From NCBI RefSeq assembly GCF_002837185.1, contig NZ_KZ478013.1, forward strand, positions 1 to 64,000: a DNA stretch of 64,000 nt. Direction: 5' to 3'. The notes under the pieces were generated by a model, which was given only the letters and a program-made list of their open reading frames with translations, ran no database searches and was not told the DNA's origin. This DNA is from Pseudomonas fluorescens (GTDB taxonomy: Bacteria > Pseudomonadota > Gammaproteobacteria > Pseudomonadales > Pseudomonadaceae). A program made the translations under genes and the position numbers. The stretch's first letter is position 1. The number at the start of each line of letters is the position of its first letter. Below are positions 4,318 through 64,000 of this stretch, piece after piece.

Positions 4318-4324
4318 TCCCCGG

Positions 4325-6696: not shown

Positions 6697-6726
6697 CTCC
6701 CCGATGGCATATCACCAGGCGCTCCC

Positions 6727-7755: not shown

Positions 7756-7795
7756 ACCATGGCATGCTTGACGGCCTGACAAAAGGAACCGTCCC

Positions 7796-8275: not shown

Positions 8276-9048
8276 GCGCCGGACACTCCATGGGTGTAGA
8301 CCTTAATGGCCACGTGGTCAGCGTCGGCACCGTCCCTGTGCAGGCCGAGTTCGAGCCTTTACTGAAGGATGTGTTGGCGACGCTTTCACAGCCCGCATTC
8401 GGCCTGGAGGGTATCTACCTGTACGGCAGTGTCGCCCGAGGCGATGCCCATGCCGAAGAATCCGACCTCGATCTCACCCTGGTCCTGCGTGACCCACCCC
8501 AGGCCGCGGTGCTTGAACAACTCGAACTGACGCGGCTGGCGCTGGAAAAGCGGCATTCCTGTGTTAGCAAAATCGATTTCGACATCGGCCACCGCGCACA
8601 GGTACTGGCGCCGGAAAACCACAATCGCTGGGGCTTCTGGCTCAAGCATCATTGCCGGTGTGTGTGGGGCGATGACCTCGGGTTGCGGCTCGAGCCATTC
8701 CGGCCAAGCCGAGACATCGCCCTGGCGCTCAACGGTGATTTTGCGCAGGTGTTGTCAGGCTATCGCGCGACTATCCTGCAGGCCGCGACCACACCGCAGC
8801 GCCTGCGCTTGCAGCGCGAAGCCGCACGCAAGTTGATCCGCTCCACGCATACGCTGCGTTCACCCGACGCACTGATGTGGCCGCAAACGCTGGAGGAGCA
8901 TGTGGCGCTGTTCACCCGGCGTTATCCCACCAGGGTCGCGCAAATCGCGTATTTTCTCTTTGAGGCCAGAAATCCAAGCGCCGAGTGCGCGGCATTTTTG
9001 CAGCGTCTTGACGCTTTTGTTGAGTGGATGGCTTCGCAGTCGGAATAA
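8272..9048 (+). CDS. Nucleotidyltransferase-domain protein
   Basis: This 258-residue protein carries the polymerase-beta-fold signature GS-VARG ... SDLDLTL: Gly52-Ser53 followed by Asp65 and Asp67, the metal-binding pair. The C-terminal 120 residues are helical, as in kanamycin-nucleotidyltransferase-like enzymes. The GTG at 8272 overlaps the previous stop; ATG 8290 is a possible alternative start. Together with the coupled P-loop kinase it suggests small-molecule or RNA modification. An antitoxin-like role (MNT type) is less likely because no HEPN partner gene is present. Confidence 0.7.
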   Translation: MSAGHSMGVDLNGHVVSVGTVPVQAEFEPLLKDVLATLSQPAFGLEGIYLYGSVARGDAHAEESDLDLTLVLRDPPQAAVLEQLELTRLALEKRHSCVSKIDFDIGHRAQVLAPENHNRWGFWLKHHCRCVWGDDLGLRLEPFRPSRDIALALNGDFAQVLSGYRATILQAATTPQRLRLQREAARKLIRSTHTLRSPDALMWPQTLEEHVALFTRRYPTRVAQIAYFLFEARNPSAECAAFLQRLDAFVEWMASQSE

Positions 9049-9174
9049 ATCAACACCTGGGGGCAGGAGGGCGATCGGCACAACTGAAACGGTGTAGGCG
9101 CGTAGCGATTTGTTCGATGCATCCAGCATTTGCCTTTACACTGCGGGCCCCGATTTTCAGCAAGGATGCTTTGA

Positions 9175-10584: not shown

Positions 10585-10703
10585 CGCCCGATAACCCAAG
10601 ACACAGGTGATTGCCCACTTACGCATGGAACCGTTACCCTCGGTTTTGACTTTACTAGCCACCGACCGTAACAGTGAGTCACGGTCTGCACCGAATCAGG
10701 ACG

Positions 10704-37046: not shown

Positions 37047-37390
37047 GAGTAGACATCCTGAGTGATGCCACCACCTTTCCGCTACTAAACAGTGGGTGGC
37101 AGCTGTACGCAGGTTAGTAGACCGGTGGATATCTAAAGCCGGCGCGCCCGGAGACGCCCTACGCACAGCCACCATCAAGCACAGACGCACTGTCTGACTG
37201 ATGAAACTCATGCACTAATAGATACCCAAGCTCAGGCTACTAAACCCGAATCACTGAACAATTCAGCGACCGAGCCACCTTAGAGACGGCCACCCCAGCG
37301 CACAAGCCGGCGGATTCTGACGCACGCGTAGGCAATGGAGCAAGCCGCGGCGAGGGAATCGGATTTTGCCTTCAGGCGCTGCTCTGCGGT
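37047..37390. other. Intergenic region with no recognised content
   Basis: No open frame with coding character, no strong hairpin and no known repeat is visible here. It leads into the inverted-repeat element starting at 37391. Confidence 0.4.
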
Positions 37391-49136: not shown

Positions 49137-49166
49137 GAATGTAACTCTCCCGGAATGCCGTCCGTG

Positions 49167-49197
49167 GCGAATAATAAAGCTGTTGATAATTATTCGC
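49167..49197. promoter_or_regulatory. Fur-like palindrome of the TonB-receptor gene
   Basis: GCGAATAA and TTATTCGC are inverted arms around a centre containing GTTGATAATTATTC, which resembles the GATAAT-rich Fur site. Its position just upstream of an iron receptor fits iron repression. Confidence 0.55.
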
Positions 49198-49259
49198 AGC
49201 AGTGTGGCAGATCAGGTCTGTGGGAAAAAGCCCAATGAATGAATCAGTTAACGAATTTT

Positions 49260-50060
49260 TCACGCGTGGGGAGGGCCAGTGCGTTTTGCTGCCTGTGCCG
49301 GGATGAATACGATTTCGTAAGGCTCACGCATGCGCTCCAGCAACACCTGGGCGAGCATCGGCGCCAGGCCGATCGCGGGGTCCCCCGTGAGCTGGCTGGC
49401 ATAGGCATGCAAGGCGTGGAGTTTGTGCGCCACGCTCCAAGTGTCCAGGCACAACTTGCGCGCACGCTGCCACGGCATCACCGAGCCTTCGCGTGCGGGC
49501 CAGTGCCAGGCCCACATCGGCAGTTCATACAATTGCGCGCCCACCCGATTGCATGCCTCGGCGCTGGCACGGCCGACGGCTTCGTGATCATCGTTGCCGT
49601 CATGGCGCCACGTGGTAAACACCACATCACCTGGCGTCAGGTATCGGGCGATGAACTGGCTTATCCGTTGCCCGTGGTTGGCCAGGGCGTTGTCGCAAAA
49701 CCCGCCACGAATCCATTTCAGGCTGTGCAACGGCATACCCAGGCGGCGCAGGGCCTCGGCGCTTTCCTGGGGGCGAATCACACTCAAGCGACCGGCCGAC
49801 CAGACCCGCGAGCCGGGGTGGCTGGCGCTGCCATCGGTGACGGAGATCAGTTTCAAGGGGTGTTGGCGCGTGCTGAGCATTTGCAGCAGGCCCCCGCAGA
49901 TGAGCACTTCATCGCCCGGGTGCGGCGCGATCACCACCACGCGAGCACCCGGCGGTATGAGGCTGGACAAACTGATGACGGGGATCTGCGCCAACTGTGG
50001 CGCGCTGTTCCAGATTTGCGCGGGGCCGCGACGGCCCTCGCTTAACGAGGCAGTTCTCAT
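49260..50060 (-). CDS. PIG-L deacetylase paralog with altered active-site motif (HPGDE)
   Basis: A 266-residue PIG-L (LmbE) family protein. Its strand-turn motif reads AHPGDEVLICGGLLQ, whereas family enzymes have AHPDDE; the replaced first Asp is the general base in MshB-type enzymes, while the next Asp and the His (zinc ligands) are kept. The rest follows the paralog at 51454-52212 closely (LISVTDGSASHPGS, RLSVIRPQESAEALRRLG, DDHEAVGRASAEA). It may have lost deacetylase activity or changed chemistry. It lies downstream of the glycosyltransferase gene after 141 bases with a hairpin. Confidence 0.85.
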   Translation of the reverse strand: MRTASLSEGRRGPAQIWNSAPQLAQIPVISLSSLIPPGARVVVIAPHPGDEVLICGGLLQMLSTRQHPLKLISVTDGSASHPGSRVWSAGRLSVIRPQESAEALRRLGMPLHSLKWIRGGFCDNALANHGQRISQFIARYLTPGDVVFTTWRHDGNDDHEAVGRASAEACNRVGAQLYELPMWAWHWPAREGSVMPWQRARKLCLDTWSVAHKLHALHAYASQLTGDPAIGLAPMLAQVLLERMREPYEIVFIPAQAAKRTGPPHA

Positions 50061-50128
50061 GGCGTATTACATCCTTGTCGGTTGACGCTCTTGTGCTCAC
50101 CCCAGGCTCCGGCTGCGGTGAGCGCGCG

Positions 50129-50148
50129 GCGCTCCGATCCTGGAGCGC
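50129..50148. terminator. Hairpin after the glycosyltransferase gene
   Basis: GCGCTCC and GGAGCGC form a perfect 7-bp stem with a 6-base loop, 54 bases past the glycosyltransferase stop on the reverse strand. It may end the long glg-tre transcript. Confidence 0.5.
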
Positions 50149-50201
50149 TGTGCGAGACGTTATGAGCATAGACAAGGACGAATGGGCGCAACGTCGTATT
50201 T

Positions 50202-50861
50202 TTACGAAACCTGCAGCAGGCCCTTCAAGTAGTCACCGAAACCACCCTGGGCGCGGCAATCCAGGCGCGCGCTGGTGATCACCTGGGGCGAATGGCTCCA
50301 GGCGATTGACGCGCCGCAACGCTCCAGATTGCGCACCAATTGCACATCCTCATGGCAGGCCACTGGTTCAAAGCCACCCGCCTGTAAATACGCGCTGGCG
50401 CTGACGCCCAGGTTGGCGCCGTGGACATGCCGATGCCCGTCGCGGGCTTCGTAAGCCTGGTGATAGCGCATCTGCGCCGCCGCGTCGAAGCCCTCGCTCC
50501 AGGCGTCTACGGTCACGGTGCCGCATACGGCGTCGCAGCCCAGCGCCAATTGCGCCACCAGCCAGTCCGGGGCAACGCGGCTGTCGGCGTCTGTACAGGC
50601 AATCCAGCGCGCGCCCAGGTCCAGCAAATGCCGTGCGCCCGCACCGCGGGCATGCCCGACATTACGTGCCTGCACCGCCAGGCTGTGCACCCCGTGCGTG
50701 CGGGCAATCGTCGCACTGGCGTCGCTGCAACTGTCGAGGACGACCAGGATGTGCACCGCTTCACCCTGCAATCCCGGATGGTTGGCGGCGATTGACGCAG
50801 CGTTCAGGCATTCGCCCAATAACGCTTCTTCGTTATGCACCGGAATCAGGATGCCGATCAT
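50202..50861 (-). CDS. Family-2 glycosyltransferase
   Basis: A 219-residue GT-A fold enzyme: ILIPVHNEEALLGECL at the start, VVLDSCSDASATIA for nucleotide-sugar binding and ARWIACTDADSRVAPDWL with the DxD metal motif, then GANLGVSASAYLQAGGF and CHEDVQL with the ED acceptor-side pair. It transfers a sugar from a nucleotide donor to an unknown acceptor in the cytoplasm. It overlaps the upstream methyltransferase gene by four bases and is the last gene of the long unit. Confidence 0.82.
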   Translation of the reverse strand: MIGILIPVHNEEALLGECLNAASIAANHPGLQGEAVHILVVLDSCSDASATIARTHGVHSLAVQARNVGHARGAGARHLLDLGARWIACTDADSRVAPDWLVAQLALGCDAVCGTVTVDAWSEGFDAAAQMRYHQAYEARDGHRHVHGANLGVSASAYLQAGGFEPVACHEDVQLVRNLERCGASIAWSHSPQVITSARLDCRAQGGFGDYLKGLLQVS

Positions 50862-51457
50862 CGCAGGCCCTCAAGACGTGCCACCGAGGTGCCATCTCGG
50901 CCCCACAGGTCGAGCAGGAAATCGTCTTCATGGTGGCGTACCACCGCGTGCAGCCCCAGTCGTTGCTCAAGCAGCGCGTGCACCTGTTCGGCGGTTTGCG
51001 GGCACCCTTCGATGGGCGGTCGCCAATGGCAGGCCAGTAGTTGGCCGCCCTGCGCCAGGGCGGCGCGGCAGCGCTCGGCCAGGCGCTCAAGATCAGCGGC
51101 GTCCAGGTAGTAACAGAATTCGCTCAATACGATGAGCTCGAATTGCCCCGATGGCCACTGTTCGGGCAAACAGCGCTGCTCTATCTGCACGTTGGAAAAC
51201 CCGGCCAGCCGCTTGCTGGCCAGCGCCACCGCAGCGCTCGCCGTATCGCAGCACAGCAAGCGATCACAACGCGCCGCCAGCTCGGCGCTCAACTCGCCAT
51301 TGGCGCAGCCGGGTTCGAACACCGAGGTGTAGCGCGCCCGGGTCAGGATGGCCAGGGTCAATGCGCGTTTGCGTTGCTCGTACCAGCGTTGACGAAACGC
51401 CCACGGGTCGTCGTTGCCGGCGAACATCTGGTCGAAATAAGGGGTCGTCACGCTCAC
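50858..51457 (-). CDS. SAM-dependent methyltransferase, NodS-like
   Basis: The 199-residue protein has class-I motif I VFEPGCANGELSAELA (47-61), a DxA at the end of strand 2 (CCDTASAAV) and IVLSEFCYYLD as motif II/III. The start DPWAFRQRWYEQRKRALTLA matches the NodS family, N-methyltransferases acting on lipo-oligosaccharide amines. It overlaps both neighbours by four bases and sits between a PIG-L N-deacetylase and a glycosyltransferase, a combination that suggests N-methylation of a deacetylated amino sugar (inference). Confidence 0.8.
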   Translation of the reverse strand: MSVTTPYFDQMFAGNDDPWAFRQRWYEQRKRALTLAILTRARYTSVFEPGCANGELSAELAARCDRLLCCDTASAAVALASKRLAGFSNVQIEQRCLPEQWPSGQFELIVLSEFCYYLDAADLERLAERCRAALAQGGQLLACHWRPPIEGCPQTAEQVHALLEQRLGLHAVVRHHEDDFLLDLWGRDGTSVARLEGLR

Positions 51458-52212
51458 ACGAACACCACTTCAAAAGGTTGCAGCAAACGCTCCACTATAT
51501 AGGGCGCCAATACAGGCGGCAGACCGGCCTGCGGGTCGCCCTCCAGCTGGCTGGCGAAGGCGTGGATGGCATGGCGTTTGCGCGCCACCCTTTCGGGCGT
51601 CAAAGGGATCTTGCGCGCACGGTCCCAAGGCACCATGCCATCTTCAGCGGTCGCCCAGTGCCAGGTCCACACAGGCAGTTCGTACAACGTAGCGCCCACT
51701 GCCTGGGCGGCTTTCGCGCTGGCGCGGCCGACGGCCTCATGGTCGCAATGCCCGTCTTCACGCCAGGTGGCGAACACCACATCGTCGGGCTTGAGGTAGC
51801 GCTGGATGAAAGCGGCGAGTTCTTCTTCACGCTCGGCAACTTTACTGTCGGTAAACCCGGCGCGCAGCCACTTCAAACTGTGCAGCGGCAAGCCCAGGCG
51901 GTGCAACGCCTGGGCCGATTCCTGGGGCCGTACCACGCTCAGACGTTGCACCGGCCACCGTTTGGAGCCCGGATGGCTGGCGCTGCCGTCGGTGACCGAG
52001 ATCAGTTGAATGGGCCGGCCCAGTTCGGCCAGACCTTGCAGCAAACCGCCGCAGCCGAGCACTTCATCGTCCGGATGCGGCGCAATGATGACTGCGCGCC
52101 GCCCCTCGGGCACCAGTTGTTCAACGCTGATATGCGGCAATTCAGCCAGGCGCGACGAGGTTTGCCAGTAATGCAGCGACGTACCCTGGCCGACAATCGG
52201 GTTGGGTTTCAT
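51454..52212 (-). CDS. PIG-L family N-deacetylase
   Basis: A 252-residue PIG-L (LmbE) enzyme with the intact AHPDDEVLGCGGLLQ motif (catalytic Asp and zinc-binding His/Asp), LISVTDGSASHPGSKRW and DGHCDHEAVGRASAKA with the third zinc His. Such enzymes remove N-acetyl groups from GlcNAc-type conjugates. ATG 52212 overlaps the stop of the acyl-CoA-dehydrogenase-like gene (ATGA); the longer open frame is antisense noise. An altered paralog lies at 49260-50060. Confidence 0.87.
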   Translation of the reverse strand: MKPNPIVGQGTSLHYWQTSSRLAELPHISVEQLVPEGRRAVIIAPHPDDEVLGCGGLLQGLAELGRPIQLISVTDGSASHPGSKRWPVQRLSVVRPQESAQALHRLGLPLHSLKWLRAGFTDSKVAEREEELAAFIQRYLKPDDVVFATWREDGHCDHEAVGRASAKAAQAVGATLYELPVWTWHWATAEDGMVPWDRARKIPLTPERVARKRHAIHAFASQLEGDPQAGLPPVLAPYIVERLLQPFEVVFV

Positions 52213-53207
52213 AACTGCCACCTCCCTGACGGTTCGCCGGCGACCTGTTCGCCCAGGGCGGCCAGGTCGCGTTCGGCGTGACTTTGACGCACATACACCG
52301 GCAAGTCCGCCATCAATTGGGCGAAGTGCGGGTCCTTGCAGTAAGGCCCCGCACCGACGGCACGCCCGACATGATGGATCACCTGCTCGACGGTTTCCTC
52401 GACGCACGCGCGCACCTGCTGGGCCAGTAGCCGGGCATCGGCGGTCGGTGCCTGGTCGACCTGCTCGGCACTGGCGCGCAGCACGCAGGCCGCGCTGTTG
52501 AGTGCGCTGTCCACCGCGCCGAGGTGGGCCAGGGCATGGGGCTCAGGGTGCTTGCCGCACTGCTCGCGCAACACTTCGGCCAGGCGCTGCGCCGCGCCAT
52601 ACCAGCACGCCGCAATGCCGATGCCGCCGTGCCAGAAGCCCGGGCGGGCCAGGTAGTCGCCTGGCCCGCCAACCGCAAGCCCCGGGGCCTCATCGAAGAC
52701 GATCTCGACACTGCCAGTAGCCGCCATGCCCACCGCATCCCAGCCTTCATCCGTCACCGTGACGCCGGGCTGGTCCATCGCCACGGCAACCAGTTGCTGG
52801 CGATCTTCTTCATCCCACGCGGTCAACAACCCGTGCGAGACAACGGAGGCCCCTGAGCACCAGGCTTTACGCCCGTCGACAATCAGCCGTTGGCCATCGC
52901 GCCGCACGCGCGCCCTGGCGCTCGGCGGCTCGGCGGCCCACATCCCCCAGATGCTGCCCAACGGCGGCAGCGGGCTGTCGAGCTCGGCAATGATCGCCAG
53001 GGCGTCGGTGTGGCCCTCGAACAGCTTGCACAAGCGCAGGTCATGTCCGGCGACCTGCGCCAGCCCGCTGTAACGCTCCAGCGTCTGGCCGCTGCCGGGC
53101 AAGGGCAGTTGGTCCAGGCCTTCTTCCTGAAGGTCCCTTAGGGCATTACCCAGGGCTTGCGTATTCGCATAGCCCCGGTAGCCGGAAAGGAATCCGTGCA
53201 ACGCCAT
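52209..53207 (-). CDS. Acyl-CoA dehydrogenase-like protein
   Basis: The 332-residue chain resembles the acyl-CoA dehydrogenase fold: a helical N-terminal part, SIWGMWAAEPPSARARV then GRKAWCSGASVVSHGLLTA as the FAD-contacting beta region, and a helical C-terminal domain from about residue 200. It is shorter than typical ACADs (about 380), and the catalytic Glu position cannot be located by eye. It starts 1 base after the glgX stop, so it is coupled to the glycogen genes. Its substrate is unknown; acyl or amine oxidation in a small biosynthetic route is possible. Confidence 0.75.
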   Translation of the reverse strand: MALHGFLSGYRGYANTQALGNALRDLQEEGLDQLPLPGSGQTLERYSGLAQVAGHDLRLCKLFEGHTDALAIIAELDSPLPPLGSIWGMWAAEPPSARARVRRDGQRLIVDGRKAWCSGASVVSHGLLTAWDEEDRQQLVAVAMDQPGVTVTDEGWDAVGMAATGSVEIVFDEAPGLAVGGPGDYLARPGFWHGGIGIAACWYGAAQRLAEVLREQCGKHPEPHALAHLGAVDSALNSAACVLRASAEQVDQAPTADARLLAQQVRACVEETVEQVIHHVGRAVGAGPYCKDPHFAQLMADLPVYVRQSHAERDLAALGEQVAGEPSGRWQL

Positions 53208-53208
53208 T

Positions 53209-55368
53209 TCACACCTCGTCGTCGTGATGCAGCTCAAACAGAAGCAGCGAGCGGCCGGTTGCAGCGTACTCGTGCTCAAACTCAAAACGCTCCTGGCCAC
53301 GGACTGCCGGGTCATTGGTATCGAGCAGGCAATTCCAGTACTCGCCCTGGGGCACCGGTGGCAGGCGGAAATTGACCATGTCGTGATGGGCGTTGACCAC
53401 CAGCAGCAACGTCGCGTCGGCGCCGGCACGTCGAATCCCGGTCTCCTGGGCGCGACCATCCATCAGCATGCCCAGGCAACGACCATGGCTGTCTTCCCAC
53501 TGCTCGGTGGTCATTTCATTGCCATCCGGGGCCAGCCAGGTGACGTCTTTTACGCCGATATCTTCGTTATAGTCGCCGACCAGGAAGCGCCCACGGCGCA
53601 GGATCGGGTACGCCAGGCGCAACTTGATCAGGCGCTTGACGAACTTGAGCAGCGCCTTGCCGTCGTCGTCCAGTTCCCAGTTGACCCAACCGATCTCACT
53701 GTCCTGGCAATAAGCATTGTTGTTGCCATGCTGGGTGCGGGCGAATTCATCGCCGGCCACGATCATCGGCGTGCCTTGGGCCAGCAGCAGGGTAGCGAAG
53801 AAGTTGCGCATCTGGCGCAGACGCAACGCGTTGATTTCCGGATCTTCGGTAGGGCCTTCGACACCATGGTTCCACGACAGGTTGTTATTGCTGCCGTCCT
53901 GGTTGTTCTCGTCGTTGGCTTCGTTGTGCTTGTCGTTGTAGGACACCAGGTCATGCAGGGTGAACCCGTCATGGGCGGTGATGAAGTTCACCGAGCTGTA
54001 AGGTCGGCGCCCACGGTGGTTGAACATTTCGCCCGAGGCGGTCATGCGCCCGGCGAAGTCCGCCAACTGGCCGTCATCGCCTTTCCAGAAGGCGCGCACG
54101 GTGTCGCGGAAACGGTCGTTCCATTCCGCCCAGCCCGGTGGGAAATTGCCCACCTGATAGCCGCCCGGTCCGCAGTCCCAGGGTTCGGCGATGAGTTTGA
54201 GCTGACGCAGGATAGGGTCCTGGCGGCACGCCACGAGGAAGCTGTGACGTTCGTCAAAGCCGTCGCGATAGCGTCCGAGGATGGTCGCCAGGTCAAAGCG
54301 GAAACCATCAACGTGCATCTCGGTCGCCCAGTAACGCAGGGAGTCGGTGACCATCTGCAGCACGCACGGGTGACTCAGGTCCAGAGTGTTGCCCGTGCCG
54401 GAATCATTGATGTAGAAGCGCTTTTCGTCGGGCATCAGGCGGTAGTACGAGGCGTTGTCGATGCCGCGCATGGACAGGGTAGGGCCGCGCTCGTTGCCTT
54501 CGGCGGTGTGGTTGTAGACCACGTCGAGGATCACCTCGAGCTTCTGCTCATGCAGGTGCGCGACCATCTCCTTGAACTCGGCGATCTTGCCGCTGGCCAG
54601 GTAGCGCGGGTCGGGCGCAAAAAACGCAATGCTGTTGTAGCCCCAGTAGTTGGTCATGCCTTTTTCCAGCAGATGCTGGTCGTTGACGAAGGCATGGACG
54701 GGCAACAGCTCGACCGAAGACACCCCCAACTGGCGGATATGCTTGAGCACGTCATCTTCCATCAGCCCGGCGCAGGTGCCGCGCACGGATTCGCCGACCG
54801 AAGGATGGCGCATGCTGATGCCGCGCAGGTGGGTTTCATAGATGATCGTGCGGTCCCATGGCACGCGCACCGGCTGGTCATTGCCCCAGGTGTGCGCCGG
54901 GTCGATGACCTTGCACTTGGGCACGAACGGCGCGCTGTCGCGCTCGTCGAAGCTGAGGTCGTCGTCGGGGTGGCCGATGGTGTAGCCAAACAGCGCTTCG
55001 GACCATTTGAGTTCGCCCACCAGTTGCTTGGCATAGGGGTCGATCAGCAATTTGTTGTGGTTGAAGCGATGGCCGTTTTCCGGGTCGTAAGGGCCATACA
55101 CACGGTAGCCGTAAATCAGCCCGGGATGGGCGTCGGGCAGGTAGCCGTGGAAGATTTCATCGGTGTACTCAGGCAGCTCGATGCGCTCCAGTTCCACTTC
55201 GCCGGCATCGTCGAACAGGCACAGCTCGACCTTGGTGGCGTTGGCTGAAAACAGCGCAAAGTTGACGCCCAGGCCGTCCCAGGTGGCGCCGAGGGGGAAG
55301 GGCAAACCTTCACGAATCCGCGACGGCTCATGGTCCGGCGTGGTTGAGGCTTTATCGGGTTTGCTCAT
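53209..55368 (-). CDS. glgX: Glycogen debranching enzyme GlgX
   Basis: The 719-residue protein is a GH13 isoamylase-type enzyme: an N-terminal CBM48-like domain (PFPLGATWDGLGVNFALFS), then the barrel with ILDVVYNHTAEG, MHVDGFRFDLATILGR carrying the nucleophile Asp, ELKLIAEPWDCG-like LIAEPWDCGPGGYQVG with the acid Glu, and FITAHDGFTLHDLVSYN. It removes alpha-1,6 side chains from limit dextrins. It is preceded by the DUF2934 gene and followed 1 base later by the ACAD-like gene. Confidence 0.93.
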   Translation of the reverse strand: MSKPDKASTTPDHEPSRIREGLPFPLGATWDGLGVNFALFSANATKVELCLFDDAGEVELERIELPEYTDEIFHGYLPDAHPGLIYGYRVYGPYDPENGHRFNHNKLLIDPYAKQLVGELKWSEALFGYTIGHPDDDLSFDERDSAPFVPKCKVIDPAHTWGNDQPVRVPWDRTIIYETHLRGISMRHPSVGESVRGTCAGLMEDDVLKHIRQLGVSSVELLPVHAFVNDQHLLEKGMTNYWGYNSIAFFAPDPRYLASGKIAEFKEMVAHLHEQKLEVILDVVYNHTAEGNERGPTLSMRGIDNASYYRLMPDEKRFYINDSGTGNTLDLSHPCVLQMVTDSLRYWATEMHVDGFRFDLATILGRYRDGFDERHSFLVACRQDPILRQLKLIAEPWDCGPGGYQVGNFPPGWAEWNDRFRDTVRAFWKGDDGQLADFAGRMTASGEMFNHRGRRPYSSVNFITAHDGFTLHDLVSYNDKHNEANDENNQDGSNNNLSWNHGVEGPTEDPEINALRLRQMRNFFATLLLAQGTPMIVAGDEFARTQHGNNNAYCQDSEIGWVNWELDDDGKALLKFVKRLIKLRLAYPILRRGRFLVGDYNEDIGVKDVTWLAPDGNEMTTEQWEDSHGRCLGMLMDGRAQETGIRRAGADATLLLVVNAHHDMVNFRLPPVPQGEYWNCLLDTNDPAVRGQERFEFEHEYAATGRSLLLFELHHDDEV

Positions 55369-55453
55369 GGTGTTGCTCCTGCAAGGATTCTTTTTTCGGG
55401 CCGAACGCGGCCGTACTGACAGTTATTCAGCGTATGACGTAGACAGTTGAGGG

Positions 55454-55480
55454 CCCCCTGACGGCAATGCGGTCAGGAGG
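55454..55480. terminator. Hairpin between DUF2934 and glgX
   Basis: CCCCCTGAC and GTCAGGAGG form a 9-bp stem (one wobble pair) with a 9-base loop in the 129-base gap. It may attenuate readthrough from glgA-treY into glgX. Confidence 0.5.
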
Positions 55481-55497
55481 CGCGGCGATCGATGAGC

Positions 55498-55758
55498 TTA
55501 GGGCTTGGGTTTCTTCGGTGCCGCGGGCTTCTTCGGCGCAGGTTTGGCAGCGGCGGGCGCCGCCGGCTTGGCTTTGGCCGCAGGCTTGGGCGCGGTCTTG
55601 GGCTTGGCGGCCGGCTTGGGCTTGCTTGGCGTCAATGCCTCGGCTTCGGCCAGCTTGCGTGCCATTTCCCAGTGACGCGCATCTTCACCGTGGGGCTTGC
55701 CTTCGGACTCCCAGATCTGGTGTGCCAGTTCGCGGATGCGTTTGTCTTCATTACTCAT
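55498..55758 (-). CDS. DUF2934 family small protein with Pro/Ala/Lys-rich tail
   Basis: An 86-residue protein: the first 45 residues are a DUF2934 domain (RIRELAHQIWESEGKPHG, ARHWEMARKLAEAEA), followed by a 40-residue tail of Lys, Pro and Ala repeats that should be disordered and strongly basic, perhaps binding nucleic acid or polysaccharide. GAGGAG lies 7 bases before ATG 55758; a GTG codon directly before it is also in frame. The gene position matches the small gene between treY and glgX in P. aeruginosa. Function unknown. Confidence 0.8.
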   Translation of the reverse strand: MSNEDKRIRELAHQIWESEGKPHGEDARHWEMARKLAEAEALTPSKPKPAAKPKTAPKPAAKAKPAAPAAAKPAPKKPAAPKKPKP

Positions 55759-55779
55759 CACACACTCCTCAGAAAATGT

Positions 55780-58530
55780 TCAGCTTTCTTGAATATCGGC
55801 ATTGATAAAGACATTGACCGGGAAATCCCCCAGGGCAGCGCTGATCAACAGCTCCTTGTCTGGTGTGACTGCGCTTGTCTGAAAAAGTCCCTTCCAGTTT
55901 TGAGTTGTGGCGGCGAACGGTAATTTCACCCGCGTATCGCCCCAAACCTGGGCAGGAATCAGGGGCAGCAGCGCATTTTCGAGCAGGCGCCGGGGCCAGC
56001 GAGGCACCACCACCAACACGTGTTTGCCGTGAAGTTCGCGGCAGAACGCAACGACATGATCGGCCAGTGGGCCAACCACCTCCAGAGCGGTGTAGGCGCC
56101 GTCGCTGAACAGCTCGACGTTAGCCTTGCGCAAGGCGAGTACTTGCCCGATCACCGCCTGCTTGATACGCCCGTCGCGCCAGCTGGACAGCAGTTCACCG
56201 ATGTCCGCCGGGTTTTCCAGGGCGCGTTGCCGCGCCTGGAAGTCCACCGGGCGCCGGTTGTCCGGGTCGACCAGGCTGAAGTCCCAGTACTCATCGCCCT
56301 GGTACACGTCCGGCACACCCGGCACGCTCAGATGAAGCAAGGTCTGCGCCAGCCCGTTCAAGGCGCCGGCGGGAGCGATGGCCTGGGCTGCGCCGGCAAG
56401 AGCGTCGCGCAACGGCTTGCCGGTTTCACTGAGCAATACGCGCTGCACAAAGGTCTCGACGCCGCGCTCGTATGCCTCGTTCGGCGCGCTCCAGCTGCTT
56501 TGCAGCTTGGCTTCGCGCAGCGCTTTCTGTTGCCACTGCCAGAGGCGTTGCTGATAGGCCTCAAGGTCAGGGTTCGGCTCCAGCGGCCAACTGCCGAGCA
56601 GCACTTGATAAAGGATCAACTCGTCGCCCGCCGAGGGGCTGTCTGGCGTCTCGCGCAACGGCGCGGCCAGGCTGCGCCAGTGTTCGACCTGCTCGGCGTA
56701 CCAGGGCGCGCACTCGCTCAGTACCGCCAGACGCGCACGGGTGTCTTCGCCACGTTTATGGTCGTGGGTGGCGGTGGCCAGCAAGTTATGGGGGAAGCTC
56801 TTCAGACGCTGCTGATTCACTGCATGAAAATCGGCCAACGGTGCGCTGAACTGCTCGGTGCTGAAGCCTACGTCGTTACGCGACAGCAACACCGCCGAAC
56901 GATAGAACGCCGTATCTTCCACGGCCTTGGCTGCGGCAGGTGAGGTCAGTTGCTGGAAGCGCACGCAGGCATGCTTGAGCATCTTGCGCGCACGGCCCAG
57001 CGGGCGATTGCGCCACGGTTGCCCACCCAGCCATTGTTCCAGGTGATCGAGTACCGGCCAGTCGCCCTCGTTCAGCGTGCTGCGCGCGCCCTCCATGGCC
57101 TGCTGGAAGATCTTGTCGTCAGCCGCGCTGCGCCCGCGAGCGCTGATGTAGGTGCGGTACACCGGAAAATGCACGATCAGTTCCTGTAACGCGCGGCGGA
57201 TCGCGCCCAGGGTCAGGTCGCGGGTCATTACGTCGTCACGGGCCACTTGCAACAGCGCCTGGGCCACACTCTCGAAATCGCCGCCCAATGAACCGTTGAG
57301 GATTTGCTGGCGGGCCAGCCGCGCCTCTTCGATAAACGCCGACGGCCGTTCGCTGTGGCGCGACCATAACTCGGCGAGCGGCGCGAAACCGTCCGGGTGA
57401 TGCTGCAGCAATGACAGCTGGTTCATGAATTCGTAGCCGGTAGTGCCGTCCACTTGCCAGTCTTCGCGCAGGGTCTCGCCGTCACCGAGGATTTTTTCCA
57501 CGAAGATCGGCAAATGCCGCTGCGGCGACAGCGCATCCACCCGGCGCCGCAGCTTGCGGCAGTAACCACGTGGGTCGGCCAGCCCGTCGATATGGTCGAT
57601 GCGCAGGCCATCGATCAGGCCTGCGCTGATCAACTCGAAAATCTTCCCGTGAGTGGCCTCGAACACCGCCGTGCGCTCGACGCGCAGGCCACCCAGTTCG
57701 TTGACGTCGAAGAAGCGCCGCCAGTTGATGTCGTCCGCCGCCGTGCGCCAACTGGCGAGGCGGTAGCTCTGTTCTTCCAGCAACTGATGCAGGCGGGCGA
57801 AACCCTCAGGCGTGCGCCCGTCGAACGCGGCGAGGCGCTGTTCGATGGCGGGCAATACCTCGCCGGCCCGCTCGGCCAGTGCCTGTTTCAGCCAGCCGGC
57901 TTCGGCGTAGGCATCGTCCTGATACGCCAGGGCGGCGAAGCGCTCGGCCAGCGGCTTGAGCGGTTCGTCGTTGCCCAGGATCAGTGCGTAGTCCCGTGGA
58001 CAGATCGGGAAACGATGTTCGTAGTGCTCAACGTAAAAGGCGCCGTGCGCCGCCTCGAACTTCAGCACCAGGTTGCCGCTTTGCAACGCTTCGCCGTAAT
58101 CGCTGCCCAGGAACGGCATCAGCAGTTGGCCCTTGAGCAGCGGGTCGGGTGAGTGCCATTGAATGTCGAAGAATTCGCTGTAGGGGCTCAAGCGTCCCCA
58201 TTCCAGCAGGTCCAGCCACCAGGGGTTGTCGGCGCCGCCCACGGCCATATGGTTAGAGACGATGTCGAGGATCAGGCCCATGTCGTGTTCGCGCAACGCG
58301 GCAACCAAGCGCTGCAACGCCGCTTCACCACCCAGTTCCGGGTTGACACAGGTGGGGTCGACCACGTCATAGCCATGCATCGAACCGGCCCGCGCCTTGA
58401 GCAGGGGCGAGGCATACAGGTGACTGATGCCCAGTCGGGCGAAATACGGCACCAACGGCACCGCATCATCCAGGGTGAAGCCTTTATGAAATTGCAGACG
58501 CTGAGTGGCGCGCAGGGGCAGTGCTTTCAT
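55780..58530 (-). CDS. treY: Malto-oligosyltrehalose synthase TreY
   Basis: The 916-residue GH13 enzyme converts the reducing end of a malto-oligosaccharide into a trehalosyl unit. Signatures: RLQFHKGFTLDDAVPLVPYFARLGISHLYASPL at the start, GSMHGYDVVDP, GLILDIVSNHMA, GLRIDHIDGLADP with the nucleophile Asp, and PIFVEKILGDGETL with the acid Glu, far apart as usual in TreY because of inserted helical regions. It overlaps malQ by four bases (ATGA) and pairs with TreZ to release trehalose from glycogen-type glucan. Confidence 0.93.
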   Translation of the reverse strand: MKALPLRATQRLQFHKGFTLDDAVPLVPYFARLGISHLYASPLLKARAGSMHGYDVVDPTCVNPELGGEAALQRLVAALREHDMGLILDIVSNHMAVGGADNPWWLDLLEWGRLSPYSEFFDIQWHSPDPLLKGQLLMPFLGSDYGEALQSGNLVLKFEAAHGAFYVEHYEHRFPICPRDYALILGNDEPLKPLAERFAALAYQDDAYAEAGWLKQALAERAGEVLPAIEQRLAAFDGRTPEGFARLHQLLEEQSYRLASWRTAADDINWRRFFDVNELGGLRVERTAVFEATHGKIFELISAGLIDGLRIDHIDGLADPRGYCRKLRRRVDALSPQRHLPIFVEKILGDGETLREDWQVDGTTGYEFMNQLSLLQHHPDGFAPLAELWSRHSERPSAFIEEARLARQQILNGSLGGDFESVAQALLQVARDDVMTRDLTLGAIRRALQELIVHFPVYRTYISARGRSAADDKIFQQAMEGARSTLNEGDWPVLDHLEQWLGGQPWRNRPLGRARKMLKHACVRFQQLTSPAAAKAVEDTAFYRSAVLLSRNDVGFSTEQFSAPLADFHAVNQQRLKSFPHNLLATATHDHKRGEDTRARLAVLSECAPWYAEQVEHWRSLAAPLRETPDSPSAGDELILYQVLLGSWPLEPNPDLEAYQQRLWQWQQKALREAKLQSSWSAPNEAYERGVETFVQRVLLSETGKPLRDALAGAAQAIAPAGALNGLAQTLLHLSVPGVPDVYQGDEYWDFSLVDPDNRRPVDFQARQRALENPADIGELLSSWRDGRIKQAVIGQVLALRKANVELFSDGAYTALEVVGPLADHVVAFCRELHGKHVLVVVPRWPRRLLENALLPLIPAQVWGDTRVKLPFAATTQNWKGLFQTSAVTPDKELLISAALGDFPVNVFINADIQES

Positions 58531-60611
58531 CGGTCACGCTCATAGGCTTGGTTGCGCGCGACGGCCAGCAGCTCGAGGCGGCGCGCGGCGCCGGCATTGT
58601 CGAGCAGGCTGGACGCTTCACCGGGCAGGCGGCGGCGCCAGTTGGGGTGGGTGTCGGTGGTGCCGGGCAGGTTGGGTTGTTCTTCCATGCCCAGGGCATC
58701 CTCCAGGGGCAGCAGCACCAGCGGCGCACGGGTGTGGCCGAGGTAGCGCACGCTGGCATCGATCATGTGGTCGGTGTCGTTGCGGATCTCATCGACAAAG
58801 TTCTGCGGGTCCTGGCTCAAGGCCTGGCGCAATGCCTGGCGTTCGCGCAGGCGGTGTTCGCTCCATTGATCCACGGTCGGCGCGTCGATCAGGCCCAGTT
58901 CGATATTCCATTCGATGTCACGGCTGTGCCACCAGCCGTTGAGCGTCGGCAAGTCGTGAGTGCTGGTGGTGGCCAGGGCGTTGTCGGGCCAGTCGAGGAT
59001 CGGCCTGAACTGGCCTTCATGGTTTTGCTCGAACAGCAATACACGCATGCCCAGAATTGCCCGGCTGCTGAGTTTTTCACGCAGGCCGTCGGGCACGGTG
59101 CCGAGGTCCTCACCGAGGACAATGGCCTGGTGACGATGGGATTCGAGGGCCAACAGCCGCAGCATGTCGTCCACCGGGTAATACAGGTAGGCGCCTTCGC
59201 GCGGTGAAGCCCCGTTGGGGATGACCCACAGGCGTTGCAGGCCCATCACATGGTCGATTCGCAGGCCGCCCGCGTGCGCGAAGTTAGCCCGCAGCATTTC
59301 AATAAAGGCACGGAAACCGTGGCGTTTGAGCCCCTCGGGGGAAAACGCGGAAATGCCCCAACCCTGGCCTGCACGGTTGAGAATGTCCGGTGGCGCGCCG
59401 ACGGTGAGGTCGGCGAGCAATTCGTCCTGGCGACTCCATGCCTGGCTGCCACCGCCGTCCGCACCCACCGCCAGGTCGGCGATCAGGCCGATACCCATGC
59501 CGCTGCCACGCGCGGCCTGTTGTGCGCGCTGCAAACTGCGGGCGATCAACCACTGGGTAAAAGCGAAATAGCCGATTTCATCACGGTGCTCCTCGGCAAA
59601 CTGTGCCAGCGCCGGGCTCTGCGGCGTACGCCAGTCTTGCGGCCAGTGACGCCAGTCGAGGTCTTCCCCGGCGGCGGCGCGCAATGCCTGCACCGCTTCG
59701 AAACGGCAGTGGTTTTCCAAGGCTTCGCCGCCAGCCTGACGGAAGCTCTGGAAATCGGCATGTTGCGGGTGGTGGCCGTGGCGGAAGTCGTCATACAGGG
59801 CGCGCAGCAGGCGCTGCTTGGCTTTGGCGGCGGCGGGCCAGTCGATCAGCGTGAGCTGTTCAAGGTCGTGCAGTTCATCGGCCAGGCCTGTGGCCTCGAT
59901 GGCATTGCGCACTTCACGTTCACCCAGGATGCACCCGGGCGAGGCATACAAGCTGTTGAGAAACAGCCGGCTGGAAGGCGAGTAGGGGCTGTAGCGCTCG
60001 GCATCGGCGCTGAACATCGCATGCATCGGGCTGATCGCCACGGCGTCGGCCCCGCGTTCGGCGGCCGAACGGGCCAGGTGCTCCAGGGCCAGGGTGTCGC
60101 CGAACCCCCCGTCGCCGAGGCGGCGCAGCGAGTAGAGCTGGGCGCTGATGCCCCAGGCGCGGGCGGGGTCATTTTGCACCGCTTCGGCCACGCTGTAGCA
60201 CTGGGCGGGGGCGACGGCGAGGGTGAACGTCTGGCCGTCGATATGCGCCTGATGGTAGCCAAGGGCGATCACGCCGGGCAGCACGGCATCACCATCCAGA
60301 CGCAGTTCCAGGCTTTCGCCATCTTCCAACTGCACGCGGCACGGCGTGTCCGGGGCAAAGAAACGCGCCAGGTCCAGGCCTTCGCCGCTGTCGACGGTGA
60401 TCAGCGGGGGCAGATGCTTATCCTGCTGTACGTGTTCCAACGACTGCAGGCTGGCCTCGATTTCGGCCTCGGTATCGGCCGGGTGACCCAGCCCCTTGAG
60501 CACGGCGCGCAGGGCGTCGGGTTTCACATGTTGTGGGCGACCATTGGCATCGATCCAATCGACGGCCAGGCCCGCGCGGCTGGCGAGTATTTCCAGGTTC
60601 GCTTCACTCAA
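58527..60611 (-). CDS. malQ: 4-alpha-glucanotransferase MalQ
   Basis: A 694-residue GH77 amylomaltase, the same length as E. coli MalQ. Recognisable parts are ARAWGISAQLYSLR, GLRIDHVMGLQRLW with the nucleophile Asp, IVLGEDLGTVPDGLRE with the acid Glu, and STHDLPTLNGWW. It disproportionates short maltodextrins so they can re-enter the TreY/TreZ route or glycogen. The start is a TTG at 60611 overlapping the treZ stop (TTGA), and its stop overlaps treY, so translation is coupled on both sides. Confidence 0.93.
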   Translation of the reverse strand: MSEANLEILASRAGLAVDWIDANGRPQHVKPDALRAVLKGLGHPADTEAEIEASLQSLEHVQQDKHLPPLITVDSGEGLDLARFFAPDTPCRVQLEDGESLELRLDGDAVLPGVIALGYHQAHIDGQTFTLAVAPAQCYSVAEAVQNDPARAWGISAQLYSLRRLGDGGFGDTLALEHLARSAAERGADAVAISPMHAMFSADAERYSPYSPSSRLFLNSLYASPGCILGEREVRNAIEATGLADELHDLEQLTLIDWPAAAKAKQRLLRALYDDFRHGHHPQHADFQSFRQAGGEALENHCRFEAVQALRAAAGEDLDWRHWPQDWRTPQSPALAQFAEEHRDEIGYFAFTQWLIARSLQRAQQAARGSGMGIGLIADLAVGADGGGSQAWSRQDELLADLTVGAPPDILNRAGQGWGISAFSPEGLKRHGFRAFIEMLRANFAHAGGLRIDHVMGLQRLWVIPNGASPREGAYLYYPVDDMLRLLALESHRHQAIVLGEDLGTVPDGLREKLSSRAILGMRVLLFEQNHEGQFRPILDWPDNALATTSTHDLPTLNGWWHSRDIEWNIELGLIDAPTVDQWSEHRLRERQALRQALSQDPQNFVDEIRNDTDHMIDASVRYLGHTRAPLVLLPLEDALGMEEQPNLPGTTDTHPNWRRRLPGEASSLLDNAGAARRLELLAVARNQAYERDR

Positions 60612-62356
60612 GACTGTTCTCCAGCAGGGAATAGGGACACGCGTGCGCTGAAGGGCGGCAACTGCGCCGCCGCAGGGTCGGCAGGCGTTTGAAAAATCAC
60701 GTGGGGCGAAGCCGGCTGATCGACGGGCTCGGTGCTCAGGTTCAGATCGATTTGCAACACGCTGCCATTGCCCAGGCGCCAGCGCGCGCTAACGGCACTG
60801 TCAGCCAGCACCTGCGCGCCGAGGGCCGCGCTGCCAGGCAGATGAGGCACTACGTATTGATGGCGCAGGCTCAATAAATGTCGATAGAGCTGGGCATGCT
60901 CGTTTTCCACCAGGGTTGGCCTGGATTGCAGGAAGGTCGTCAAGGCGTTGGGATCGGGGATGCGTTCGCGCTGCTCAGGGTCATGAAACGCGGCGAAATC
61001 GGCAAACTCGTTGCGTCGACCTTCACGTACAGCCTCTGCCAGTTCCCCGTGATGGTCGGTGAAGAACAGGAAAGACTCGCCAGCATTGACCTCATCGCCC
61101 ATGAACATCAGCGGGATCATCGGCGACAACAGCAACAGCGCGGTCGCCGCCTTCAACGCCTGGGGCGGGCACAGCTGGTGCAGGCGTTCGCCCAGGGCCC
61201 GATTGCCGATCTGGTCGTGGTTCTGTAAAAACGCCACGAACGCGGTCGGAGGCAATTCGCCGCTCGGTTCGCCGCGTGCATGGCCGTGGCGAGTGGTCTG
61301 GCCCTGATAGATAAAGCCTTCAGCCAGGCAGCGCGCCAATTTGGCCGTGGGCTGCTCGGCGAAGTCGCTGTAGTAGGCGTCGGTTTCGCCGGTGAGCAGC
61401 ACGTGCAGCACGTTGTGGAAGTCATCGTTCCATTGTGCGTCGAAATCATGTTGGAGCAGGCCGGCCTGGTTCAGCTCGTTTTCCAGCATCAGCCATACGT
61501 GGCGCCCGGTGTCGACTTGCTGGCGTACTCGCTGCGCCAGCTCCTGGAGGAAGCCGGGGTTGTCGATGGCGTGCACTGCGTCCAGCCGCAGGCCGTCGAA
61601 GCGGTATTCCAGCAGCCACATCAGGGCGTTATCGAGGAAGAAATCCCGCACTTCGCGGCGTTCGAAATCAATCCCCGCGCCCCAGGGTGTGTGCACGTCT
61701 TCCTGGAAAAAGCCCTTGGCGTACTGGCCCAGGTAGTTGCCATCGGGACCGAAGTGGTTGTAGACCACGTCAAGGATCACCGCCAGGCCGTGCTCGTGGG
61801 CGCTGTCGATCAGGTGCTTGAGTTGTTCGGGGGAGCCGTAGGTTGCTTGCGGGGCGTAGGGCAGTACACCGTCGTAGCCCCAGTTGCGCTCACCGGGGAA
61901 CTGCGCGAGCGGCATCAATTCGATGGCGGTCACGCCCAGCTCGGCCAGGCGCGGCAGGTGCTTCTCGACTTCGGCGTAACCGCCCATCGCGCCGACGTGC
62001 AGTTCGTAGATCACCGCCTCATGCCAGGGGCGCCCCTGCCAGTGGGTGTGCCGCCATTGATAGGCGAGCGGGTCGACCACGCGGCTCCAACCATGCACAT
62101 CCAGGGCCTGGGCCCTGGACGCGGGGTCGGGAACTTCGCGTTCCCCGTCGATATTGAAGCGATAGAGCGTCCCGGCGGGGCAGGCTATTTCGACTTCAAA
62201 CCAGCCATCTGCCTGGGGCAGCATGGCGATGGATTTTCCTTCTTGCAATTCAACGCTGACATAAAACGCGTCTGGCGCCCACAAGGCGAAACGCGTGTGT
62301 TGCGCGTCCAGCATCAGTGCGCCGTGGGGCCAGGTTTCCAAAGTCCGTAACGGCAT
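60608..62356 (-). CDS. treZ: Malto-oligosyltrehalose trehalohydrolase TreZ
   Basis: The 582-residue GH13 enzyme hydrolyses the trehalosyl end made by TreY and frees trehalose. An N-terminal CBM48-like domain (TRFALWAPDAFYVSVEL) precedes the barrel with YELHVGAMGGYAEVEKHLP, GLAVILDVVYNHFGPDGNYLG, YRFDGLRLDAVHAID with the nucleophile Asp, and WLMLENELNQA with the acid Glu. It starts 19 bases after the glgA stop, with AGAGAGG upstream. Confidence 0.92.
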   Translation of the reverse strand: MPLRTLETWPHGALMLDAQHTRFALWAPDAFYVSVELQEGKSIAMLPQADGWFEVEIACPAGTLYRFNIDGEREVPDPASRAQALDVHGWSRVVDPLAYQWRHTHWQGRPWHEAVIYELHVGAMGGYAEVEKHLPRLAELGVTAIELMPLAQFPGERNWGYDGVLPYAPQATYGSPEQLKHLIDSAHEHGLAVILDVVYNHFGPDGNYLGQYAKGFFQEDVHTPWGAGIDFERREVRDFFLDNALMWLLEYRFDGLRLDAVHAIDNPGFLQELAQRVRQQVDTGRHVWLMLENELNQAGLLQHDFDAQWNDDFHNVLHVLLTGETDAYYSDFAEQPTAKLARCLAEGFIYQGQTTRHGHARGEPSGELPPTAFVAFLQNHDQIGNRALGERLHQLCPPQALKAATALLLLSPMIPLMFMGDEVNAGESFLFFTDHHGELAEAVREGRRNEFADFAAFHDPEQRERIPDPNALTTFLQSRPTLVENEHAQLYRHLLSLRHQYVVPHLPGSAALGAQVLADSAVSARWRLGNGSVLQIDLNLSTEPVDQPASPHVIFQTPADPAAAQLPPFSARVSLFPAGEQS

Positions 62357-62375: not shown

Positions 62376-63932
62376 TTATTTAGTCGATTTCCCCAGTGCT
62401 TTAACCACCAGTTGTTCGTACAGCTCGGCGTAGGGTTCCACCGCCTGCGACCAGTTGAACGGTTGGGTCATGGCGCGGCTGCGCATGGCGTTGAGCAGGC
62501 CGGGGAAGGAGAACACTTTGAACGCGCGCTCCAGCGCGGCCTTGTAGCTGTCGACGGTGGATTCGTTGAACAGAAAACCGGTTACGCCGTCTTCAATGGT
62601 GTCGGCCAGGCCACCGGTATTGCGCGCCACCGGCAACGAGCCGAAACGCTGCGCATACATCTGGCTCAGGCCGCAGGGCTCATAACGCGAAGGCATCAAC
62701 AGGAAGTCGCTGCCGGCGAACATGCGGCGGGCGTCGGTTTCGTTGAAGCCGATGCGCACGCCGACCTGGCCCGGGAAGCGCAGCGCCAGTTCACGCATGG
62801 CGTGTTCCTCTTCCGGCTCGCCGCGCCCGATGATCGCGATCTGGCCACCGTTTTCGACAATGAAGCTGGCGACTGCCTCGGTCAGGTCCAGGCCTTTCTG
62901 GTAGACCAGTCGCGAAACCACGGCAAACAAAGGGCCGGTGGAATCGTGCAGGCCGAACAGTTCGCGCACGTGGGCGGCGTTGATGGCCTTGCCTTCCCAG
63001 TCACCGATATTGAAGTTGTGGGTCAGGTGGGTGTCGGTGGAGGTTTCCCAGCTTTCGTCGATCCCGTTGGGAATGCCGCTGAGCAGGCCCTGCTGGGTCT
63101 TGCTGGCGAGGAAGCCGTCCAGGCCGCAGCCGAATTCCGGCGTGGTGATTTCCTGGGCATAGGTGGCGCTGACCGTGGTGATATGGCTGGAATAAGCCAT
63201 GCCGGCCTTGAGAAACGACATCTTGCCGTAGAACTCCATGCCTTCCTGTTGCAGCGCATGGGGCGGAATGCCCAGTTCCGGGGTGCAACCCAGGCTTACC
63301 ACGCCTTGGTAGGCGAGGTTATGAATAGTGAACAGGGTCGGGGTGCGTGAACCACGCCAGTGCATATACGCCGGGGCCAGGCCAGCGGGCCAGTCGTGGG
63401 CGTGCACCAGGTCCGGGCACCAGTGGATCTGTGCCAGGTTGGCGGCCATGTCGGCGGCGGCCAGGCCCAGACGGGCGAAGCGGATGTGATTGTCCGGCCA
63501 GTCGCGGCCATTGTTGGCGCCGTAGGGTGTACCTTCGCGCTCGTACAGCTCGGGACAGATCAGCACATAGATGACCAGGCCGTCCTTGAGGTCCATGCGC
63601 CCGATCTTGCACGGCGGCAGCGCAGCGTGGCCACCCAGTTCGCCAATGATGTGAATCGGGTTGTCGCTTTCCATCACTTGCGGGTAACCGGGAATCAGCA
63701 CACGCACATCGTGCAAGTGAGCCATGGCGCGGGGCAGGGCCGCCGACACATCGCCCAGGCCGCCGGTTTTCACCAGGTCGGCAAACTCGGACGTGACAAA
63801 CAGCACCTTCTTTCGGTTGGGGTTATGACTGGACACCGGCCGCACCGTGTTGAGGTCGACGACCAAAGGGGTCGACCCGCCAACTGGCTGACTAACACGC
63901 TCTCCCTGAATACTTGCTGCGGCACTGATCAT
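62376..63932 (-). CDS. glgA: Glycogen synthase GlgA
   Basis: The 518-residue GT5 enzyme elongates alpha-1,4-glucan from ADP-glucose. KVLFVTSEFADLVKTGGLGDV carries the KTGGLGDV substrate loop, and the C-terminal half has VSRLVYQKGLDL and LMPSRYEPCGLSQMYAQRFGSLPVARNTGGLADTI with the conserved EPCGL catalytic block. ATG 63932 has GGAGAG upstream and is preferred over the TTG at 63944. It is the first visible gene of the trehalose/glycogen unit. Its promoter is at or beyond the window edge. Confidence 0.93.
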   Translation of the reverse strand: MISAAASIQGERVSQPVGGSTPLVVDLNTVRPVSSHNPNRKKVLFVTSEFADLVKTGGLGDVSAALPRAMAHLHDVRVLIPGYPQVMESDNPIHIIGELGGHAALPPCKIGRMDLKDGLVIYVLICPELYEREGTPYGANNGRDWPDNHIRFARLGLAAADMAANLAQIHWCPDLVHAHDWPAGLAPAYMHWRGSRTPTLFTIHNLAYQGVVSLGCTPELGIPPHALQQEGMEFYGKMSFLKAGMAYSSHITTVSATYAQEITTPEFGCGLDGFLASKTQQGLLSGIPNGIDESWETSTDTHLTHNFNIGDWEGKAINAAHVRELFGLHDSTGPLFAVVSRLVYQKGLDLTEAVASFIVENGGQIAIIGRGEPEEEHAMRELALRFPGQVGVRIGFNETDARRMFAGSDFLLMPSRYEPCGLSQMYAQRFGSLPVARNTGGLADTIEDGVTGFLFNESTVDSYKAALERAFKVFSFPGLLNAMRSRAMTQPFNWSQAVEPYAELYEQLVVKALGKSTK

Positions 63933-64000
63933 AATTCTCTCCAACGTGTTGGTTAGCTAGTGGCCCGCTGCCATTAGCTCGATGACCGCTTCCTGCGGCC

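Follow-up and report, generated by a model that had tools for sequence, protein, structure and literature searches.

Introduction

The closest described relative of the locus reported here is the Pseudomonas GlgA-TreZ-MalQ-TreY-GlgX operon, which is RpoS-dependent in Pseudomonas fluorescens UK4; in the part of that study considered here, an rpoS mutant had glgA, treZ, malQ, treY, a small gene, and glgX at 0.23-0.41 of wild type, and the operon, RS03630-55, ended at GlgX with no mention of added genes (PMC6372562). The trehalose genes of P. synxantha (PMC12442406) and Azotobacter (PMC10651043) are also mentioned, in the portions of those reports that we drew on, without any such addition. We analysed a 64,000-nucleotide stretch of P. 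fluorescens DNA (contig NZ_KZ478013.1, positions 1 to 64,000; hereafter the window) in which this operon is the host of four more genes, located directly after glgX (Table 1). They encode a protein with the acyl-CoA dehydrogenase (ACAD) fold, a PIG-L/LmbE-type N-deacetylase, a NodS-like methyltransferase (MT), and a short family-2 glycosyltransferase (GT). We refer to these four genes as the cassette, of which no description was found in the full-text literature searched, most subscription journals being outside the scope of that search.

Characterised proteins resemble several members of the cassette. The closest characterised relative of the MT is NodS (3OFJ/3OFK), a nodulation N-methyltransferase whose substrate is a deacetylated amino sugar, although the operon genes gave no match to a NodA, NodB, or NodC model. 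The PIG-L protein shares its PF02585 match and its HPDDE and HxDH motifs with diacetylchitobiose deacetylase, BshB1, and TT1542, and it falls under the equivalog cut-offs of BshB1 and BshB2. For the ACAD-like protein, the best hits in profile, sequence, and Foldseek searches include flavin monooxygenases with the ACAD fold (TdsC/DszC and the nitrososynthases KijD3 and DnmZ), but it is shorter than these and only ~20% identical to them. Nitrososynthases oxidise amino sugars.

Beside the gene order, conservation, motifs, and linkage counts that we observed, we infer a set of reactions, their order, their product, its location in the cell, and its regulation. Our tentative reading, whose chances we would place slightly short of even, is that the four genes constitute a stress-induced intracellular pathway to one amino-sugar conjugate that is deacetylated, N-methylated, and oxidised. 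The GT would first couple an acceptor to an N-acetylated sugar; the PIG-L enzyme would then strip the acetyl group, the NodS-like MT would methylate the freed amine, and the ACAD-fold flavoprotein would oxidise the product, either by N-oxygenation or by C-N dehydrogenation. In the fluorescens/syringae branch the cassette forms the tail of the trehalose/glycogen operon, and elsewhere it accompanies OtsAB, TreY, sucrose-phosphate synthase, or Ku/LigD, the putative common factor being expression in osmotic, desiccation, or stationary-phase stress.

Arrangement of the cassette and conservation in Pseudomonas

On the minus strand of the window the genes run in the order glgA, treZ, malQ, treY, the gene of a DUF2934 protein, and glgX, followed by those of the ACAD-like protein, PIG-L, MT, and GT. 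A single base lies between glgX, which ends at 53209, and the start of the ACAD-like gene, and each of the three later junctions overlaps by 4 bases (ATGA, GTGA, and ATGA). The original prediction, made from the same DNA, described four genes that overlap by ATGA and start one base after glgX; its coordinates, strand, gap, and 4-base overlaps hold, with the correction that the middle junction reads GTGA. Its statement that the genes are fused in translation was too strong, as these are separate proteins that are at most translationally coupled, and its gene set, although right, was incomplete, since it did not list a paralogous PIG-L gene at 49260-50060 that starts 141 bp downstream of the cassette.

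Of 149 Pseudomonas genomes, among them that of the window, 92 had an ACAD match better than 1e-40, all other matches being weaker than 1e-9, and the window protein is 96% identical to a relative in P. orientalis. Conservation of the arrangement was evaluated in the best 80 of the 569 Pseudomonas loci found, a set that is biased to close relatives. In all 80 of these near loci glgX lies directly upstream of the ACAD-like gene at an estimated 0-20 nt (raw aligned gaps 4-46; the ACAD start was extrapolated where the match begins inside the query). The overlaps were kept at 62/80 loci for ACAD-PIG-L, 71/80 for PIG-L-MT, and 61/80 for MT-GT, the last count including two match artefacts. All four cassette genes were kept in 69 of the 80 loci, the GT being absent from the other 11, and the second PIG-L gene was present in 58; at one GT-less locus (L068) it follows the MT gene after 178 bp. 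The association of glgX and the cassette is therefore not a product of chance. Median dN/dS values relative to the window were 0.097 for ACAD, 0.075 for PIG-L, 0.144 for MT, and 0.103 for GT (21-27 loci each), and 0.143 for the second PIG-L, and with ratios this low all five genes appear to be kept by selection. Separately, the ACAD match is broken over two frames in two Pseudomonas genomes (G052 and G080), reflecting either decay or sequencing error.

Twenty further Pseudomonas loci, hand-picked from the lower, more divergent half of the 149-genome match list, showed a different picture, with the glgX arrangement in seven and absent from 13. At eight of these 13 loci (L122, L125, L127-L131, and L134) the cassette is adjoined by ligD, and in six of those eight ku lies on the other side.

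Predicted activities of the encoded proteins

We compared the MT to sequences in the Protein Data Bank (PDB), where it matched 4ISC (E 6.3e-69 over 164 residues), a close solved relative labelled only 'Methyltransferase' with no stated function. The second match was NodS (3OFJ, E 5.9e-11), and all others stood at 0.0088 or weaker. The MT scores above the gathering threshold of the Pfam NodS family (PF05401, 48.9 against 24 bits) and below the NodS equivalog cut-off in NCBIfam (54.8 against 300 bits). The GT matches general family-2 models only (PF00535, 42.4 bits against a gathering score of 23.3) and had no relative in the PDB sequence search at 0.01; its structural model (pLDDT 89.8) resembles WrtF (Z ~21) among other, general GT-A enzymes.

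The window PIG-L protein matches PF02585 at 90.6 bits (cut-off 28.2), carries HPDDE and GHCDH motifs, and resembles sugar deacetylases, including diacetylchitobiose deacetylase. Among copies aligned to it, both motifs are intact save for HADDE in one locus (L184); these motif counts, and those for the paralogue below, cover only the copies that best match one or the other protein. In NCBIfam the PIG-L protein matches BshB1 best, as might be seen if the cassette encoded a thiol cofactor pathway resembling those of mycothiol and bacillithiol, in which a glycosyltransferase step is followed by PIG-L deacetylation. We regard such a pathway as highly improbable: the BshB1 score is 52.1 bits against a cut-off of 182.5, no cysteine ligase was found among the operon genes scanned, and the cassette GT belongs to family 2, whereas BshA and MshA are family 4 glycosyltransferases.

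The second PIG-L protein is 57-59% identical to the first. It has HPGDE in the window and in 59/59 other copies (L037-L117), and of the 58 copies in which the second motif could be aligned, 54 have another residue in place of the first His of HxDH; the second His is lost in L086 only. Because the replaced residues are those that we take, from the chemistry of MshB, to be catalytic, the remaining ones presumably binding zinc, this protein looks like a conserved pseudo-deacetylase, and we conclude from its motifs that the second gene probably encodes one.

For the ACAD-like protein, Pfam recognises the middle ACAD domain only, and an AlphaFold2 model (pLDDT 85.8) has the ACAD fold, with best Foldseek E-values of 1e-13 to 1e-11 and Z-scores of ~30 to isovaleryl-CoA dehydrogenases. 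A single-sequence search placed TcsD, KijD3, and nitrososynthases as the nearest structures, and a profile search placed the flavin monooxygenases TdsC and DszC on top. In an alignment of 40 family members, the column of the canonical catalytic Glu (YEGT), anchored on two YEGT-bearing proteins among four genuine ACADs from neighbouring loci, holds Arg in 39 and is followed by a Gln present in all 40. Some acyl-CoA dehydrogenases carry the catalytic Glu on the following helix instead; no nearly invariant Asp or Glu was found at positions 161-236 when the family members were aligned, an alignment in which the exact position of the alternative Glu was not aligned. With the canonical Glu gone and no nearly invariant acid in this interval, the ACAD-like protein is probably not an acyl-CoA dehydrogenase. 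Oxidation of an amine or C-N bond would be its most economical role beside a deacetylase and a NodS-like MT, and the structure searches with the ACAD-like and GT models do not choose a reaction.

These results bear on the original prediction, which likened the cassette to the synthesis of Nod factors and saw in the first gene an 'acyl-CoA-dehydrogenase-like partner'. A real acyl-CoA dehydrogenase or acyl-transfer partner, giving an acylated, Nod-factor-like amino sugar, would agree with the fold and with its similarity to isovaleryl-CoA dehydrogenases, but we consider it very unlikely given the residues described above, and no acyltransferase or carrier protein was found among the window operon genes scanned. 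The acyl partner is thus not borne out, and the NodS equivalog cut-off was missed; what persists of the Nod analogy is the MT, for which NodS comes next after 4ISC, and the deacetylase, with its likeness to sugar deacetylases.

Distribution and gene content in diverse bacteria

Beyond Pseudomonas the distribution of the cassette is patchy. ACAD matches were detected in 31 of 398 genomes of a phylum-level sample (1e-20), in 6/369 and 12/293 genomes at the levels of class and order (both 1e-30), and in 14/150 and 38/150 genomes of two families (1e-40). Of 89 diverse loci, for which all counts are limited to the retrieved stretch, 62 contained ACAD, PIG-L, and MT together and 49 contained the complete set of four. 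The position of the GT is variable, the gene lying before the others, after them, inverted, or farther off. In Comamonas antarctica the cassette lies on a plasmid, between otsA and otsB, with gene ends that overlap or nearly touch, and on Pandoraea and Kitasatospora plasmids the set is found among stress genes, such as those of CsbD, YqjD, and a ferritin-like protein.

In eight of the 25 diverse loci without the usual PIG-L (L171, L235, L243, L245, L247, and L249-L251), ACAD has a divergent PIG-L gene no more than 3 kb away, in seven of them after the GT; in the other 17 no PIG-L was found in the retrieved stretch. This gene is possibly a non-orthologous replacement of the usual PIG-L, which suggests that a deacetylase step is needed. 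A GT that is 52-57% identical to that of the cassette is encoded elsewhere in the genome in 12/12 GT-less Pseudomonas genomes, the group that this comparison covers, and none of the other reference genes is present in its surroundings. The substitute PIG-L and the second GT would fit a pathway that needs each activity, without proving it. As a separate observation, the GT has a solitary relative on a Paraburkholderia plasmid, ~5 kb from ligD and ku (L005, 7838-8488).

The cassette might instead be a case of co-regulation only, with enzymes that have no common product and have been collected in general-stress islands. Its neighbours across loci are diverse stress genes (ligD/ku, CsbD, YqjD, a ferritin-like protein, and catalase), and 40 of the 89 diverse loci lack the usual PIG-L (25) or the GT (19), four of them lacking both, although a few of these losses reflect contig ends. 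We nonetheless judge this explanation unlikely, since the same families are found together in distant genera and in differing orders, and since the divergent PIG-L is retained close to ACAD in the eight loci listed above. The original prediction, which would have the four genes together rather than usually apart, is upheld in close relatives (69/80 near loci) and less so in the diverse set, where 49/89 loci keep all four and 62/89 the first three.

Linkage to trehalose, sucrose, and stress genes

To evaluate linkage to trehalose synthesis we used the 50 of 77 ACAD-matching genomes outside Pseudomonas in which OtsA and TreY were placed. OtsA or TreY lies within 10 kb of ACAD in 9/50 genomes and 8/33 genera (g4, g9, g28, g45, g65, g572, g582, and g632), where 0.28 genera would be expected (P ~2e-10); these statistics use rounded genome sizes and a linked list compiled by hand, genera are not independent, and contig ends may hide linkage. 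Of the 27 genomes outside this test, 25 belong to one family (f20) and have no trehalose gene in their retrieved stretches, so that their omission favours a linkage, and the remaining two (G176 and G536) have a short stretch only. A pessimistic correction that adds the 25 genomes and five unlinked genera gives P ~7e-9. In two more genomes (G1289 and G621) only other glycogen genes are close by.

At the thresholds applied, OtsA and TreY were both missing from three of the 50 genomes (G284, G701, and G353), and in all three a sucrose-phosphate synthase/phosphatase is encoded ~3-8 kb from ACAD; the argument from sucrose comprises these three genomes, and in five others with sucrose-phosphate synthase/phosphatase the gene is on another contig or far from ACAD. 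The locus of one of the three (L183 of G284, 4275-12384) contains a sucrose-phosphate synthase/phosphatase fusion, two more glycosyltransferases, MT, and a very divergent ACAD in one run, together with a nearby gene of the histone-deacetylase family on the opposite strand and no PIG-L in the stretch.

We mapped these associations on a tree of 95 ACAD proteins, a quick reconstruction with long branches (among them L183, L212, and L003). The trehalose-linked label needs nine changes on this tree, at least four of them forced by starred branches, and the ligD label needs five, which indicates that linkage has been gained or lost repeatedly.

One explanation of the linkage is a shared substrate, the cassette decorating trehalose or glucan itself to give, for example, a glycosylated, amino-, or N-methyl-trehalose. 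The invariable placement of glgX before ACAD in the near loci and the insertion between otsA and otsB in Comamonas antarctica would both agree with this, but the set lies close to sucrose-phosphate synthase in the three genomes that lack both OtsA and TreY, and many loci have no sugar gene in the retrieved stretch. To our knowledge, moreover, none of the four enzyme types puts an amine on a neutral sugar, and we hold such a decoration to be improbable, a shade more so than mere co-regulation. Given such varied partners elsewhere (OtsAB, TreY, sucrose-phosphate synthase, or Ku/LigD), the loci would be united by expression under osmotic, desiccation, or stationary-phase stress rather than by a glucan substrate; what they appear to have in common is stress physiology, not glgX or glucan. 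The original prediction had tied the cassette to glgX as such, a link not supported by loci elsewhere, where the neighbours are otsA/otsB, treY, sucrose-phosphate synthase, or ligD/ku, and it had also suggested a connection to drying and stationary phase, which the trehalose linkage counts and the sucrose-phosphate synthase neighbours strengthen.

Weighing and implications of the proposed pathway

Several observations weigh against the pathway to a single amino-sugar conjugate that we favour. The names of the PIG-L, NodS-like, and ACAD families span many substrates. True dehydrogenases come within about three orders of magnitude of the monooxygenases as matches of the ACAD-like protein (1RX0 at 9.7e-11, TdsC at 6.2e-14), and VIA-align Z-scores of its model tie between the two groups (the 50 matches include neither KijD3 nor DnmZ, an absence from which we draw no conclusion). 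The 40/89 diverse loci without the usual PIG-L or GT count here as well, the second GT of Pseudomonas was counted in GT-less genomes alone, and a trehalose or glycogen gene was found in 0/39 stretches of family f20. Lastly, judging from the part of the UK4 study considered here, no more than two genes would fit, by locus tag, between GlgX and GlgB, the next gene listed, and the four cassette genes are probably not all present in that strain; the RpoS result from UK4 does not cover the cassette (PMC6372562).

A broader and more speculative proposal, which we regard as rather doubtful, is of a widespread pathway by which bacteria that build up a non-reducing disaccharide, be it sucrose or trehalose from any route, would produce another small protectant besides. 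This compound would be an amino-sugar conjugate that is N-methylated and flavin-oxidised, and in fluorescent pseudomonads the catalytically silent PIG-L paralogue would serve the pathway through binding or regulation. If the pathway does exist, many soil and plant bacteria would make an unnamed stress metabolite through enzymes that are now annotated as an acyl-CoA dehydrogenase and a nodulation protein, and a comparison among deletion mutants in a single operon would offer a way to the product. The cassette is repeatedly paired with trehalose genes, with sucrose genes in genomes where neither OtsA nor TreY turned up, and with genes of DNA-end repair, which provides a testable lead on survival of drying and starvation.

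Other features of the locus

Table 1 Features of the cassette and its surroundings in the window.
Feature	Position	Strand	Remarks
ACAD-fold flavoprotein gene	52209..53207	-	332 aa; Arg at canonical catalytic Glu position; start 1 nt after glgX
PIG-L/LmbE-type N-deacetylase gene	51454..52212	-	252 aa; HPDDE and GHCDH motifs intact
NodS-like S-adenosylmethionine (SAM) methyltransferase (MT) gene	50858..51457	-	199 aa, GTG start; 4ISC is a close solved relative
Short family-2 glycosyltransferase (GT2) gene	50202..50861	-	219 aa
Second PIG-L gene	49260..50060	-	266 aa; HPGDE for HPDDE, GNDDH for GHCDH
glgX, glycogen debranching enzyme	53209..55368	-	upstream gene of the same run as the cassette
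Small DUF2934 protein gene	55498..55761	-	87 aa
treY	55780..58530	-	
malQ	58527..60611	-	
treZ	60608..62356	-	
glgA	62376..63944	-	
Two adjacent inverted repeats	50095..50154	unassigned	between GT and second PIG-L gene

A scan of 49000-56200 returned no promoter-like sites (mean of 1.4 in shuffled sequences) and five terminator-like sites, which is no excess over shuffles (6.2), and none of the latter was called at the two inverted repeats. These repeats are possibly a processing site or attenuator. An Rfam scan of 49000-56000 at E 0.1 gave no match. Outside the operon, the window contains a match to C4 antisense RNA (RF01695, 71.9 bits) at 37092-37179 on the minus strand, and an AAA/ABC-type ATPase with a DUF4435 segment is encoded at 34071-35702.

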